NCBI RefSeq assembly: GCF_001458315.1
Contig: NZ_CYRX01000033.1
Location: 496,001 to 560,000 of the forward strand
From: Thalassobacter stenotrophicus
Lineage (GTDB): Bacteria; Pseudomonadota; Alphaproteobacteria; Rhodobacterales; Rhodobacteraceae
DNA: 64,000 nucleotides
Direction: 5' to 3'
Under the pieces are notes generated by a model. The model was not told the origin of the DNA. It ran no database searches and saw only the letters and a program-made list of their open reading frames with translations. Of this stretch, positions 48,427 to 58,371 are shown one piece after another (positions within the stretch are counted from its first letter, which is position 1; each line of letters opens with the position of its first letter). A program made the translations under genes and the position numbers.

Positions 48427-48858
48427 ATGATGGATCTTAGACAATTAGCGCCCGGCTTTTTTGCGGCACCGCAATTGGAGCCCTCAGACATGGCGGCGCT
48501 GGCCGCACAGGGCGTGACGACCGTAATTTGTAACCGCCCCGAGGTGGAGAACCCTCCGCCACTACAGGCCGCCGCGATGCAACAGGCCGCTGAGGCGGCA
48601 GGCCTCGCGTTTGTGTTCAACCCTATCACGATGGGCGCTATGACGATGGACAACGTGGAGGAGCAATCCGAGGCGATGGCCGGCAGCGAAGGCGCGGTCG
48701 TGGCCTATTGTGCGTCGGGCACACGTTCTGCGATCATGTGGGCCTTGGCGCAGGCGGGGCAAATGCCCACCGATGACATCCTGAGCGCGACGGCCTCTGG
48801 GGGATATCAACTGGACGGGCTGCGCGGGCAGATTGACGCGCTCGCGGCTGAGGCATGA
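48427..48858 (+). CDS. TIGR01244-type sulfurtransferase / phosphatase-like protein
   Basis: A 143-residue protein of the TIGR01244 (beta-lactamase hydrolase-like) family, with a rhodanese/dual-specificity-phosphatase-like fold. The N-terminal DLRQLAPGFFAAPQLEPSDM is typical, ICNRPEVENPP follows, and the catalytic loop is YCASGTRSAIMWAL (C-x-x-G-x-R-S) at about residues 94-107. AAGGAG lies just before the ATG. It overlaps the first nitrile hydratase gene by 4 bases (ATGA), so it belongs to that operon; a link to NHase function is not established. Confidence 0.85.
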   Translation: MMDLRQLAPGFFAAPQLEPSDMAALAAQGVTTVICNRPEVENPPPLQAAAMQQAAEAAGLAFVFNPITMGAMTMDNVEEQSEAMAGSEGAVVAYCASGTRSAIMWALAQAGQMPTDDILSATASGGYQLDGLRGQIDALAAEA

Positions 48859-49196
48859 GCGGGCTGGACGGCAAACGCTGGCACGATATGGGTGGCGCGC
48901 TTGCCGGGCCAATCCCGCAGGATGACCATGACTTTGCCCTTTGGGAAAAGCGGGTAGATGCGTTGATGATCCTCGCCTCAGGTGCGGGACATTTTACCGT
49001 GGATGGGCTGCGTCGCGCGCTGGAAGACATGGGCGAGGCGGCCTTTGAAACCATGACCTACTATGAGCGTTGGGTTGCGGCGATCAATCAAAACCTGTTG
49101 GAGCAGGGGGTCTATTCGATCGCTGAGTTGGGCGAAAAGATGCAGGCCGTGCAGGCGCGCGGTGAGACCTACGGTGAGGCGAGCAATGCTGGATAA
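48855..49196 (+). CDS. Nitrile hydratase beta subunit, N-terminal part (split gene)
   Basis: A 113-residue protein that matches only the N-terminal helical half of the nitrile hydratase beta subunit: WHDMGGALAGPI, DFALWEKRVDAL, FTVDGLRRALEDMG, TYYERWVAAINQNLLEQGV and YSIAELGEKM. In ordinary NHases this half continues into an SH3-like C-terminal domain; here the frame stops and the C-terminal domain is a separate gene that overlaps by 11 bases. The N-terminal half is also related to NHase activator proteins, so an accessory role is the alternative. It overlaps the upstream sulfurtransferase gene by 4 bases. Confidence 0.82.
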   Translation: MSGLDGKRWHDMGGALAGPIPQDDHDFALWEKRVDALMILASGAGHFTVDGLRRALEDMGEAAFETMTYYERWVAAINQNLLEQGVYSIAELGEKMQAVQARGETYGEASNAG

Positions 49197-49449
49197 GGTA
49201 CGGGTGCGCACTTGGGCACCGCCGGGGCATGTTCGCACGCCCAGCTACCTGCGCGGCAAAATCGGCGAGGTTGAGCGGACCTTGGGCCCGTTTGGCAACC
49301 CCGAGCAGCTTGCATATGGTCTGCGGGCGGACCCTTTGGCTCTGTACCGGGTGCGGTTTCGGATGGGCGATGTTTGGGGGGCAGATGCAGAGCGTCCCGA
49401 AGATGTGCTTGAGGCGGAAATCTATGCCCATTGGCTTGAGCCCGTTTGA
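49186..49449 (+). CDS. Nitrile hydratase beta subunit, C-terminal part (split gene)
   Basis: An 87-residue protein equal to the SH3-like C-terminal domain of the NHase beta subunit: DKVRVRTWAPPGHVRTPSYLRG, KIGEVERTLGPFGNPEQLA, LYRVRFRMGDVWG, VLEAEIYAHWLEP. Its ATG at 49186 lies inside the end of the N-terminal gene, in another frame. Both halves keep their conserved residues, which argues against random decay. They would assemble with the alpha subunit to form the active site. Confidence 0.85.
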   Translation: MLDKVRVRTWAPPGHVRTPSYLRGKIGEVERTLGPFGNPEQLAYGLRADPLALYRVRFRMGDVWGADAERPEDVLEAEIYAHWLEPV

Positions 49450-51571: not shown

Positions 51572-53614
51572 ATGAAAGATAGCATGACCCAAACGCGGCC
51601 CCAATTTGTGAACCGCTATGATCAGCGAGGTGTTGCAATTATCACGTTGGCGCATCCTCCGCGGAATGGGCTGGAGCCGGAGGTCATTGCCGAGGCTCAA
51701 TCGGTTGTTCAGGCGGCGCTGTTAGATGCTGATGTGCGGGCATTGGTGATCAAGGGTGGGGGCACGGGTTTCGCGTCAGGCGCGGATTTGCGTGGCGCGG
51801 TGGTGCGGCCGGATCCGGCATTGTCGGCGCTGTGCCGGATGCTTGAGGACGCGCGCAAGCCGACTGTCGCCGCGATCCATGGGGCTGCGATTGGCCCGGG
51901 ACTAGAGTTGGCGCTGGCCTGCCACTTTCGCGTCGCACAAGTGGATACGCAATTCTCATTCCCGGACATCGCGCTGGGCTGGTTGCCTGCGGCGGGCGGA
52001 ATACAAAGGTTAACGCGGATTGTCGGCGGGCGTGCCGCCATGAGCGCGCTGCTGGGTGGGCGCGCATTCGGCACGCGGCGGGCTAAACAATTGGGACTTT
52101 TGGATATAGTCACCCAAGGCGCACCATTGGACGCCGCGATAACACGGGCCTTGCAGGTTGCCCCGCGCCCGACGCGAAAACGGTTGGATGCCTTGGTTCA
52201 TTCAAAGCTGGATCTTGAGGCTCTGGCCGCGGAGCGGACCAAGCGGGCTGTTGTTGATGCACCAACTGCTGCGCCACGTGCAATTCTGGCCTGTATTGAG
52301 GCCGCTTTGACGGATGATATGGCATCTGGTTTTCGGCTGGAGGCACGATTGGCGGCAACCTGTGCAGAGGACCCGGCCGCGCGGGCTCTGCGTGCTATCT
52401 TTCTTGCGCGGCGGGATGCGGTGCGGCCCAATGCCTTAGATATAGGGCAGGTTTCGGTCGGGCGGCTTGGGCTAGTGGCAAGCGGTGACGCGCAGAGTGA
52501 TCGGATCGCCGCCCTTTTGGGAGCCCGCGCTTTGCGTGCGAATTTGGCATTGGTCGTGGGCGGCGATGATCCTGATGCTCGTGCTAGGCTGAATGCTCAG
52601 ATTGAGCGTCACCTCCAGCGGTCTGAGGTTGCGGGTCATCTTTCGGCCGGACGCCTCAATGCCCTAATGAATGGGATTAACCTAGTCGAAAACTTGCAGG
52701 ATATCGGGTCATGCGATGTGGTGTTTATGGGCGGGGTGCGGCCTGATGTGCTTGCACATATGCGGGGCGATGCAGTCTGCTTGTGCCCGTCGGACGGACA
52801 GGTCGTGCCTGCGCCGCTGGCTGCTCAAGTGTTGCCCTGTCGGGGGTTGATGGCGCCGCGCGCGGTGTTGGAGCTGTGCCCGTCTGAGACTACCAGCCCA
52901 GAGGCGCGGGCCCTTGGCCTCGCATTAGCGCGTGCATTAGATCAGCCCGCGATTGAGGTTCCAGCAGGCAAGCCACCGGTGTTGCCTGCGCTTGAGGCAG
53001 CTTGGCTCGTGGCCGCAGATCATTTGCTTATGGCGGGGGCGAGCGTGGCGCAGATCGACGCGGCTTTTGCCAAGGCTGGCTGGCGCGAGGGGCCGTTTGT
53101 ACGGCAAGACCGCTTCGGCATTGTGGCCACTCGGACCCGCATCGCACAGGCCGCGGCGCATCAGTCGGAAGGCGGCATCAAACTAGCCGCATCCTTGATC
53201 GCGGCGGGGCAAAACGGGATCAAATCCGGCTTGGGCTATTACACGTGGGACGCCGGTGAACTTGTGGGCGAAAATCCGGCGGTTCAATCGGCGATCGCGC
53301 TTTTGCAGCCTGCCCAAAAACCGGTCCTTGATGCCGATATCGTGCCCTATTGCGCGGCGGCGATTAGCAATCAAGCGGCGCGGATTTTGGGCGCGCAGGG
53401 TGTTGCCCGCGCCTCTGACCTAGATGTGGCGGCTGTGTTTGGCTTGGGTTGGCCGCGCGCTCAGGGCGGTCCCATTTGGGCGGCTGAGGATGAGGGGCTG
53501 GGCCTTCTTCTGAGCCGTATCTGGGGCTATAGCACGCGCGATTCCACGTTTTGGCAGCCCGCCCCACTGCTCGAAAACGCCGTGGCCAAGATGCGGGAAA
53601 CGCTTGTGCCCTAA
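51572..53614 (+). CDS. FadJ-like fusion protein with degenerate dehydrogenase half
   Basis: A 680-residue protein with the FadB/FadJ layout. Residues 10-200 form an enoyl-CoA hydratase domain: GGTGFASGADLRG, AAIHGAAIGPGLELALAC (first catalytic Glu kept) and FPDIALGWLPAAGGIQRL, where the usual second Glu is Asp. The region 290-560 aligns with the 3-hydroxyacyl-CoA dehydrogenase domain but lacks G-x-G-x-x-G (here VGRLGLVASGDAQSD) and H-F-F-x-P (here VLPCRGLMAPRAVLEL). The C-terminal helices are still recognisable (NGIKSGLGYYTWDAG). NAD-dependent oxidation is therefore unlikely. The start at 51572 is supported only by a weak GAGG. Convergent with the SnoaL gene, sharing stop-codon bases. Confidence 0.85.
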   Translation: MKDSMTQTRPQFVNRYDQRGVAIITLAHPPRNGLEPEVIAEAQSVVQAALLDADVRALVIKGGGTGFASGADLRGAVVRPDPALSALCRMLEDARKPTVAAIHGAAIGPGLELALACHFRVAQVDTQFSFPDIALGWLPAAGGIQRLTRIVGGRAAMSALLGGRAFGTRRAKQLGLLDIVTQGAPLDAAITRALQVAPRPTRKRLDALVHSKLDLEALAAERTKRAVVDAPTAAPRAILACIEAALTDDMASGFRLEARLAATCAEDPAARALRAIFLARRDAVRPNALDIGQVSVGRLGLVASGDAQSDRIAALLGARALRANLALVVGGDDPDARARLNAQIERHLQRSEVAGHLSAGRLNALMNGINLVENLQDIGSCDVVFMGGVRPDVLAHMRGDAVCLCPSDGQVVPAPLAAQVLPCRGLMAPRAVLELCPSETTSPEARALGLALARALDQPAIEVPAGKPPVLPALEAAWLVAADHLLMAGASVAQIDAAFAKAGWREGPFVRQDRFGIVATRTRIAQAAAHQSEGGIKLAASLIAAGQNGIKSGLGYYTWDAGELVGENPAVQSAIALLQPAQKPVLDADIVPYCAAAISNQAARILGAQGVARASDLDVAAVFGLGWPRAQGGPIWAAEDEGLGLLLSRIWGYSTRDSTFWQPAPLLENAVAKMRETLVP

Positions 53615-54597
53615 AGCGTTCGGCGGGGTGCTCCTGCGTGGTGTGCTACCCGCGCTAAGACGTCTACGCCCATCTGGGCCGCGAGCCCGAGGATGTCGAT
53701 TGGTAGCCAATTTTCCGCGATCCGATCACCATCGAACCGGTAAAAGTCCATGACTGACATTCTGATGGGGCGGCCTGTGGGGGCCATGCCGAGGTATTCA
53801 CCCGTGTGGGTCGCGCCCACGTCACCGCCTGTTACGGCAAAGTCACCGTCCCCAATTCGGATGAAATGACCGATTGCGTAACGATCTGGAAAGGCGTGTA
53901 AAAACGGTATCTGGTGATGCGCGCGAAACCCTGCAAGGCCGCGGGTCGTACCGATACCGCCCCCGGCATAGTACATAAAGTTTTCGGTCCACCAGTCAGA
54001 CATCGGCATGGAATCGAGCGATTTTCCGTCAAAGCTCAAAAGGGCGTCGTGCATCGCAAAGACGCGGGTCAGTGCATCTGCAGGACCCGCCCTGTCGAGC
54101 AAAACACCGCCACCGCCTTTGGGCCCCGGCCAGTGACCCGGCGCACCAAGAGGCGCGGCCAAGGGCCAGCGGCCCACTTGCAACAACAGGTCCGCAAGAT
54201 CCCAAATTAGCCAAGACCGCCTCAGGCGACCGTCCTCAAAGTAATGCGCCTCACCGTAGCGTAGGGTGACGACGCCGTGGCTGGGCGGAATGCCAAACAG
54301 TGGCGCGCTAAAGGTACCTTGATAACTGCCCATGCAGGCGACCAGCGGTCCAAATCGCTCAAATTTTGCCCGCGGGTCTGGGTGGTTTTCGCCTGCAAGA
54401 AAAATGTCGTCTCTCCGCTCCCCATCGGGCAGGGCGCGGCGCAACGCGTGCCATATCTCCGCCACGTCCGCGCCGCCTGTCACATGGCCGACCGGATGCA
54501 TGGCCTGCGCTTGGGCGTCTTCGTGTGGGGCGGTGGTACCTGAGAAAAGGCCCTGAAGGGTGGCGAAAGCCTCTGATTTCAGCTGAGCGAGATCCAT
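53611..54597 (-). CDS. Two-domain SnoaL-like (NTF2-fold) protein
   Basis: A 328-residue protein made of two SnoaL/NTF2-like domains. The first (about 20-150) has HPVGHVTGGADVAEIWHALRRALPD and VTLRYGEAHYFEDGRLRRSWLIWDLADLL. The second (about 175-315) has SDWWTENFMYYAGGGIGTTRGL, FPDRYAIGHFIRIGDGDFAVTGG and IRMSVMDFYRFDGDRIAENWLPIDIL. Such proteins are often ester cyclases, hydratases or isomerases. It is divergent from the ABC ATPase gene; a perfect inverted repeat sits 20 bases before its start. Linked by context with the GMC oxidoreductase and the second SnoaL gene. Confidence 0.85.
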   Translation of the reverse strand: MDLAQLKSEAFATLQGLFSGTTAPHEDAQAQAMHPVGHVTGGADVAEIWHALRRALPDGERRDDIFLAGENHPDPRAKFERFGPLVACMGSYQGTFSAPLFGIPPSHGVVTLRYGEAHYFEDGRLRRSWLIWDLADLLLQVGRWPLAAPLGAPGHWPGPKGGGGVLLDRAGPADALTRVFAMHDALLSFDGKSLDSMPMSDWWTENFMYYAGGGIGTTRGLAGFRAHHQIPFLHAFPDRYAIGHFIRIGDGDFAVTGGDVGATHTGEYLGMAPTGRPIRMSVMDFYRFDGDRIAENWLPIDILGLAAQMGVDVLARVAHHAGAPRRTL

Positions 54598-57235: not shown

Positions 57236-57763
57236 ATGAAAGGCAGCCGCCCCGAACAAGCCACCCTCACGCGTGAAGCCGATATGTCCAAGACCGAAGA
57301 GACCCGGGCGGTAATCGAAGGTATGGTCGATGGATTGAATGACCACCGCATTGCCGACATCGGAGAGTTCTTTGCTGAAGGTTTTCGTTGGATGGGTAAT
57401 ACGGGATGTGGCACCAAAGAAGGCCTGCGCGCGTTTCAAGAAAACTGGCAAAAGCCCTTTCAGGCTGCGTTTTCGGACAAAGTCTGCGTGGATGAAGCGC
57501 GACTTTATATGGGTGAGTGGGCCGCAGCTTTTGGTCGGCAAGAGGCCAATCATTCAGGCCGGTTTATGGGCGTCGAAGCCACAGGTAAGCGGATTACAAT
57601 CCGCTACATGGATTTTTGGAAGGTTGAGAACGGTAAGATTGTCGATAATTACGTAATGGTAGACTTTCCCCACGTGCTCGCACAGCTCGGGGTTGATGTT
57701 TTCAACGGCGAAGGTTGGGAAGCGTTTGATCGCGGTGACAAGCAGCCGCCACAGCCGGGGTAA
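57236..57763 (+). CDS. Single-domain SnoaL-like ester cyclase family protein
   Basis: A 175-residue NTF2-fold protein: VIEGMVDGLNDHRIADIGEFFAEGFRWMG at the start, GLRAFQENWQKPFQAAFSD, RFMGVEATGKRITIRYMDFWKVENGKIVDNYVMVDFP near the end. The pattern is that of SnoaL-like ester cyclases. AAAAGGACG precedes the ATG, 15 bases after the GMC gene, so it is in the same operon as the ABC ATPase and GMC enzyme. A second in-frame ATG at 57284 is possible as start. The substrate is unknown. Confidence 0.86.
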   Translation: MKGSRPEQATLTREADMSKTEETRAVIEGMVDGLNDHRIADIGEFFAEGFRWMGNTGCGTKEGLRAFQENWQKPFQAAFSDKVCVDEARLYMGEWAAAFGRQEANHSGRFMGVEATGKRITIRYMDFWKVENGKIVDNYVMVDFPHVLAQLGVDVFNGEGWEAFDRGDKQPPQPG

Positions 57764-57982: not shown

Positions 57983-58089
57983 GGTTTTGCTCCCTTTGAG
58001 TTGCCCTTCGCTAGCGTCAGAATCCCCGTTGCGCAAGACGGGTCGTCAGGATAGGCACGGTGCTCATTCCGTTCCGCAGGAGCTTGCTT

Positions 58090-58371
58090 ATGTCCGATAT
58101 GTCCGCCGAAACCCACTCGAACTCAACGCCCGATAGCTACCGTGTCACAGCCGACGAACTGCGTCAGTTCATCGAACGTCTTGAGCGCCTTGATCAAGAG
58201 AAGAAGGACATTGCTGAGCAGCAGAAGGAAGTGATGGCCGAAGCCAAAGGGCGGGGCTACGACACTAAGGTTATGCGCAAAGTAATGGCGCTGCGGAAGC
58301 GTGAGCCTGACGATATTGCCGAGGAAGAGGCAATATTGGACATGTACAAAGAAGCCCTGGGGATGCGCTAG
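58090..58371 (+). CDS. gapR: GapR family DNA-binding protein (DUF2312)
   Basis: A 93-residue all-helical protein matching GapR: VTADELRQFIERLERLDQEKKDIAEQQKEVMAEAKGRGYD, then MRKVMALRKREPDDIAEEEAILDMYKEALGM. GapR is an essential chromosome-structuring protein of Caulobacter that binds overtwisted AT-rich DNA ahead of replication and transcription. The ATG at 58090 follows GCAGGAGCTTGCTT. It has its own promoter region in the gap from the small membrane protein gene. Confidence 0.94.
   Translation: MSDMSAETHSNSTPDSYRVTADELRQFIERLERLDQEKKDIAEQQKEVMAEAKGRGYDTKVMRKVMALRKREPDDIAEEEAILDMYKEALGMR

Follow-up and report, generated by a model that had tools for sequence, protein, structure and literature searches.

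An open reading frame of the FadJ/MFE1 type with a degenerate dehydrogenase half lies at 51572..53614 on the forward strand of the window, which is the whole 64-kb stretch of DNA analysed here. Translation starts at an ATG at 51572, the stop codon ends at 53614, and the 680 codons contain 0 internal stops. The original prediction had described this frame as full-length; its coordinates were exact and the frame is open throughout. Also present in the window are a BLH-phosphatase-like gene (48427..48858, +; PF04273) and a GapR gene (58060..58371, +; PF10073), each of which recurs in the neighbourhood of FadJ-type genes at 11 further fetched loci. The FadJ-type gene is preceded by sequences matching the N-terminal part of nitrile hydratase beta (PF21006; 48855-49449, +) and nitrile hydratase alpha (PF02979; 49473-50141, +), and the remainder of the beta subunit may be encoded in the overlapping open reading frame 49063-49449. 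Two SnoaL-like (PF07366) proteins, at 53611-54597 (-) and 57236-57763 (+), lie on either side of an ABC transporter ATPase and a GMC oxidoreductase; relatives of the first of these two proteins also adjoin FadJ-type genes, at L109 and L124. Around the FadJ-type gene there is no obvious operon with other fatty-acid genes, and the context names no substrate. Rfam and tRNA scans of the 64-kb window returned no matches.

The enoyl-CoA hydratase (crotonase) core of the protein covers residues 10-195 (51599..52156, +), and a crotonase domain is clearly recognized by Pfam (PF00378, ECH_1; residues 18-222, 111.5 bits, cut-off 27). The Rossmann (C) domain, residues 297-463 (52460..52960, +), lacks the NAD and catalytic residues but is predicted to be folded, with strands and helices in the AF2 model; its match to the NAD-binding domain 3HCDH_N, at 14.1 bits, falls below the cut-off of 22. 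The 3HCDH C-terminal D/E domains occupy residues 464-675 (52961..53596, +) and are matched by PF00725 (3HCDH; residues 476-559, 39.6 bits, cut-off 22.1). Against the NCBIfam FadJ equivalogs TIGR02440 and NF008363 the protein scores 167.1 bits (cut-off 968) and 201.7 bits (cut-off 869), low values that alone do not set it apart from intact relatives of the family.

The closest solved structures by sequence are enzymes of the MFE1/FadJ type. Confidence in the AF2 model is high along the entire chain (pLDDT 87, pTM 0.87), with a weaker stretch at residues 380-430 (block means of about 69-83), and the model may be pulled toward the intact fold by an input alignment composed mostly of intact relatives. 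Superposition gave 6ium_A as the best solved match (Z 41.1 over 652 of the 680 residues), with a Z of about 37 to rat MFE1 and a Foldseek TM of 0.84. It can be seen that the five-domain hydratase-dehydrogenase fold is complete in the model. The earlier statement that length and C-terminal helices are preserved was thus borne out by structure prediction and structural alignment, the means by which it had been proposed to be checked.

For rat MFE1, the NAD and dehydrogenase residues have been described as Glu326, Phe382, Glu383, Ser410, His431, Ser434, Glu443, and Asn481 (PMC5715344). In the alignment, the GxGxxG motif is replaced in the window protein by V-A-S-G-D together with a 5-residue insertion, and the former NAD loop reads A-S-G-D-A-Q-S-D-R (residues 303-311; 52478..52504, +). 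Glu326 aligns with G330, Phe382 and Glu383 are deleted, Ser410 is lost, Ser434 is likewise replaced or deleted, and the position of Asn481 is taken by Pro472. Gly425 stands at the position of the catalytic His431 (52844..52846, +). Among Ser410, His431, Glu443, and Asn481, only the dyad residue Glu443 survives, as Glu434 (52871..52873, +; alignment and residue table). Both absences named in the original prediction, that of the NAD-binding G-x-G-x-x-G and that of the dehydrogenase catalytic segment, were confirmed by these replacements and deletions and by the sub-threshold 3HCDH_N score. That the dehydrogenase half is catalytically dead is a well-supported prediction from the sequence.

The hydratase site has also been altered. 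In rat MFE1, the N-H groups of Ala61 and Gly100 are the oxyanion donors, and Glu103 and Glu123 are catalytic (PMC5715344); the N-H of the matching Gly118 is employed by DmdD (PMC3660561). In the window protein, Ala61 is kept as A71 and the first catalytic glutamate as Glu112 (51905..51907, +), the second is replaced by Asp132 (51965..51967, +), and Pro109 (51896..51898, +) occupies the oxyanion Gly100 position, 3 residues before the first glutamate. This proline matters because its nitrogen carries no hydrogen for the thioester oxygen. Only one other protein (L148) among the 224 aligned homologues has proline at this position. The full crotonase set of two catalytic glutamates and two oxyanion N-H donors is therefore absent. 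The hydratase half had been considered largely intact, and this description held for the retained Glu103 and the exchange of Glu123 for aspartate, while the substitution of the oxyanion glycine had been overlooked; since Pro109 has no N-H to donate, the hydratase is damaged too. With both Asp132 and Pro109, any crotonase activity of the protein would at best be slow or altered, and acyl-CoA binding or very slow hydration is about as likely a role for it as a hydratase-only function. It is a very diverged member of its group and may be a poor hydratase.

The distribution of such proteins was surveyed in 296 Rhodobacteraceae genomes, one per genus, which gave many full-length matches. For the alignment, 80 named loci of other bacteria were added to these matches, and 224 distinct homologues were entered in the residue table. 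Glu383, Ser410, His431, and Asn481 (rat MFE1 numbering) were scored as the diagnostic dehydrogenase residues. None of them is lost in 184 homologues, one or two are lost in 5, and three or four in 35, a sharp split that argues against gradual noise. The 35 degenerate members span at least 32 genera. Every fully degenerate member among the matches listed belongs to Rhodobacteraceae; the loci from outside this family, having been recovered through one hydratase pattern, do not form an unbiased sample.

At the hydratase site of the degenerate members, Glu103 is present in 29/35 and Glu123 in 25/35, and 21 have both glutamates with a residue other than proline at the oxyanion position. The first glutamate has been lost in 6 members (3 Asp, 2 Ala, 1 Ser). 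Among individual loci, it is also lost in L148 (G358:C5), which has Ser, and in L156 (G253:C1), which has Ala. At the dehydrogenase site, arginine is the commonest replacement of the catalytic histidine (24/35), and the dyad glutamate is retained in 33/35, suggesting that the His-Glu dyad may have been converted to an Arg-Glu salt bridge. Two FadJ-type proteins, L010 (G229:C4) and L161 (Maritimibacter harenae), are only partly degenerate and share near-identical altered motifs: His and Asn are kept, Ser410 is changed to Ala, and the first hydratase glutamate is Lys in L010 and Glu in L161. Their state is possibly an early stage of dehydrogenase loss.

Median identity in the hydratase domain is 0.41 between degenerate members versus 0.46 between intact ones; the corresponding values are 0.26 versus 0.52 for the Rossmann domain and 0.34 versus 0.51 for the C-terminal domains. 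As the drop is confined mainly to the latter domains, the loss of constraint across genera is concentrated in the dehydrogenase half. No close relative of the window gene was found by genus, contig, central-region, and nearest-relative scans, the maximum identity being about 38%; dN/dS was therefore taken from a relative genus, represented by G262 and three congeners. Rough pairwise Nei-Gojobori estimates for a degenerate congeneric pair (dS 0.42) are 0.146 for the hydratase, 0.107 for the Rossmann, and 0.100 for the D/E domains, and an intact FadJ pair of the same genus gave 0.13 overall at dS 0.99. Within this genus, the dead dehydrogenase half is under purifying selection. Retention of the frame had been attributed to selection for a non-redox role, with dN/dS in relatives as the proposed check. 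Selection of this kind is likely for the group, in view of the relative-genus value of about 0.11 in the dead domain and the preserved fold.

The window protein forms the longest branch of the tree, with about 2 changes per column. A quick tree needed 4 changes between the intact and degenerate states; in a second, carefully built tree of 27 rows, 3 were needed and a single degenerate clade appeared in 0 of 200 bootstrap trees. These trees suggest several losses of the dehydrogenase. Multiple independent losses are not claimed here, as one common loss is not rejected by the AU test (p 0.67 and 0.18).

Most of the fetched degenerate loci share a sensor histidine kinase (HisKA/HATPase), a FliMN_C-domain protein, a BLH-phosphatase-like gene, and GapR as neighbours, and a response regulator, an ScfR-type acyl-CoA regulator, and a periplasmic binding protein are found upstream in most of them, in an arrangement that varies between loci. 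Intact FadJ-type genes occur at the same locus in other genera (n=6: L063, L011, L013, L015, L020, and L068). As at the degenerate copies, their neighbours include the sensor kinase, BLH phosphatase, and GapR in varying combinations. Their products share about 30% identity with the window protein over the full length and, unlike it, carry all the dehydrogenase residues. The remaining intact copies examined lie mostly among acyl-CoA dehydrogenase and thiolase genes. On the simplest interpretation, the dehydrogenase was lost in place at one locus. Because only the BLH phosphatase and GapR of the common set are found in the window, the position of its gene at this conserved locus is probable. Elsewhere in the T. 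stenotrophicus genome, genes for an intact FadB-type enzyme (3HCDH_N, 210.7 bits), an acyl-CoA dehydrogenase, and a thiolase are clustered with an AMP-binding gene; no second FadJ-type gene was found in this genome.

Compared with known systems, the window protein resembles FadJ/MFE1 enzymes (rat peroxisomal MFE1 and 6ium from Ralstonia eutropha H16) in its order of hydratase, linker helix, Rossmann domain, and two C-terminal helical domains, and in the first hydratase glutamate and the dyad glutamate. It differs from them in lacking the NAD loop, Glu383, Ser410, His431, and Asn481, and in having Asp for the second hydratase glutamate and Pro for the oxyanion glycine. The crotonase fold and first catalytic glutamate are also shared with AcuH and DmdD. 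These two monofunctional crotonases, which occur in the same bacterial family, have no fused module, possess both catalytic glutamates, and have measured activity (PMC5651017, PMC3660561). The distance from known MFE1/FadJ systems is modest. Neither a published account of a degenerate FadJ group nor a published activity measurement was found in the open-access literature.

According to the explanation that we somewhat favour, these Rhodobacteraceae FadJ/MFE1 fusions are no longer bifunctional and consist of a crotonase half joined to a folded, non-redox dehydrogenase module. The crotonase half would still bind enoyl-CoA and 3-hydroxyacyl-CoA and, in most members, hydrate enoyl-CoA. The dehydrogenase half would be kept as a folded module packing against the hydratase, as in the MFE1 fold, and would be unable to bind NAD or oxidize 3-hydroxyacyl-CoA, which would be set free rather than channelled. 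We infer a hydratase-only function for the group, which fits the 21 of 35 degenerate members with a complete hydratase site; against it stand the compromised hydratase of the window protein and the 6 members without the first glutamate, so it is possibly wrong for a subset. That such fusions still work as dehydrogenases through other residues, for example by binding NAD without the glycine motif, is very improbable: the dyad glutamate persists in nearly all degenerate members and AF2 predicts a Rossmann fold, but Ser410, His431, Asn481, and Glu383 are missing together, the Rossmann score is under the Pfam cut-off, and the arginine that most often replaces the catalytic histidine is an improbable base.

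Damage at both active sites and the longest branch in the tree could also be seen in a decaying relic, under relaxed constraint, heading for loss and persisting through harmlessness. The function also seems dispensable, as 79 of the 296 genomes (incomplete ones included) lack a FadJ-type match at E<=1e-30. Decay is nevertheless an improbable explanation, given 680 codons without a stop, a full predicted fold, the low dN/dS of the dead domain in a relative genus, and retention of the degenerate form by so many genera. Because the same loss recurs in at least 32 genera, the findings suggest a protein that now has a different or reduced job, not a dying gene. This job might be entirely non-catalytic, the protein binding acyl-CoA or another protein as an acyl-CoA sink, sensor, or beta-oxidation partner. 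Such a full pseudoenzyme would accommodate the two damaged sites of the window protein, the loss of the first glutamate in other degenerate members, with Lys there in the partly degenerate L010, and the proximity in many genera to a sensor histidine kinase, a response regulator, and an ScfR-type acyl-CoA regulator. Moreover, changing Glu to Ala at either position abolishes or nearly abolishes crotonase activity in AcuH (PMC5651017) and DmdD (PMC3660561). We regard it as possible but unlikely, since the complete site in 21/35 members indicates that selection probably still maintains catalysis in most of these proteins, and the neighbour arrangement is not constant, with just two of the neighbours in the window. 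A further proposal, which we consider rather doubtful, is that a whole class of MFE1/FadJ pseudo-dehydrogenases, often with Arg-Glu for His-Glu, arose several times in Rhodobacteraceae at one syntenic locus near the sensor kinase and acyl-CoA regulator, the dead module having taken on a new task such as sensing acyl-CoA or regulating the hydratase.

Genes of this kind are likely annotated as 3-hydroxyacyl-CoA dehydrogenases. Such an annotation would attribute to these common marine bacteria a step of beta-oxidation that the protein should not perform. The sharp split across the family between intact and dead forms, often at the same locus, represents a natural experiment on why a module of 400 residues is kept after its chemistry has been lost, be it to support the hydratase structurally or to serve a new role.
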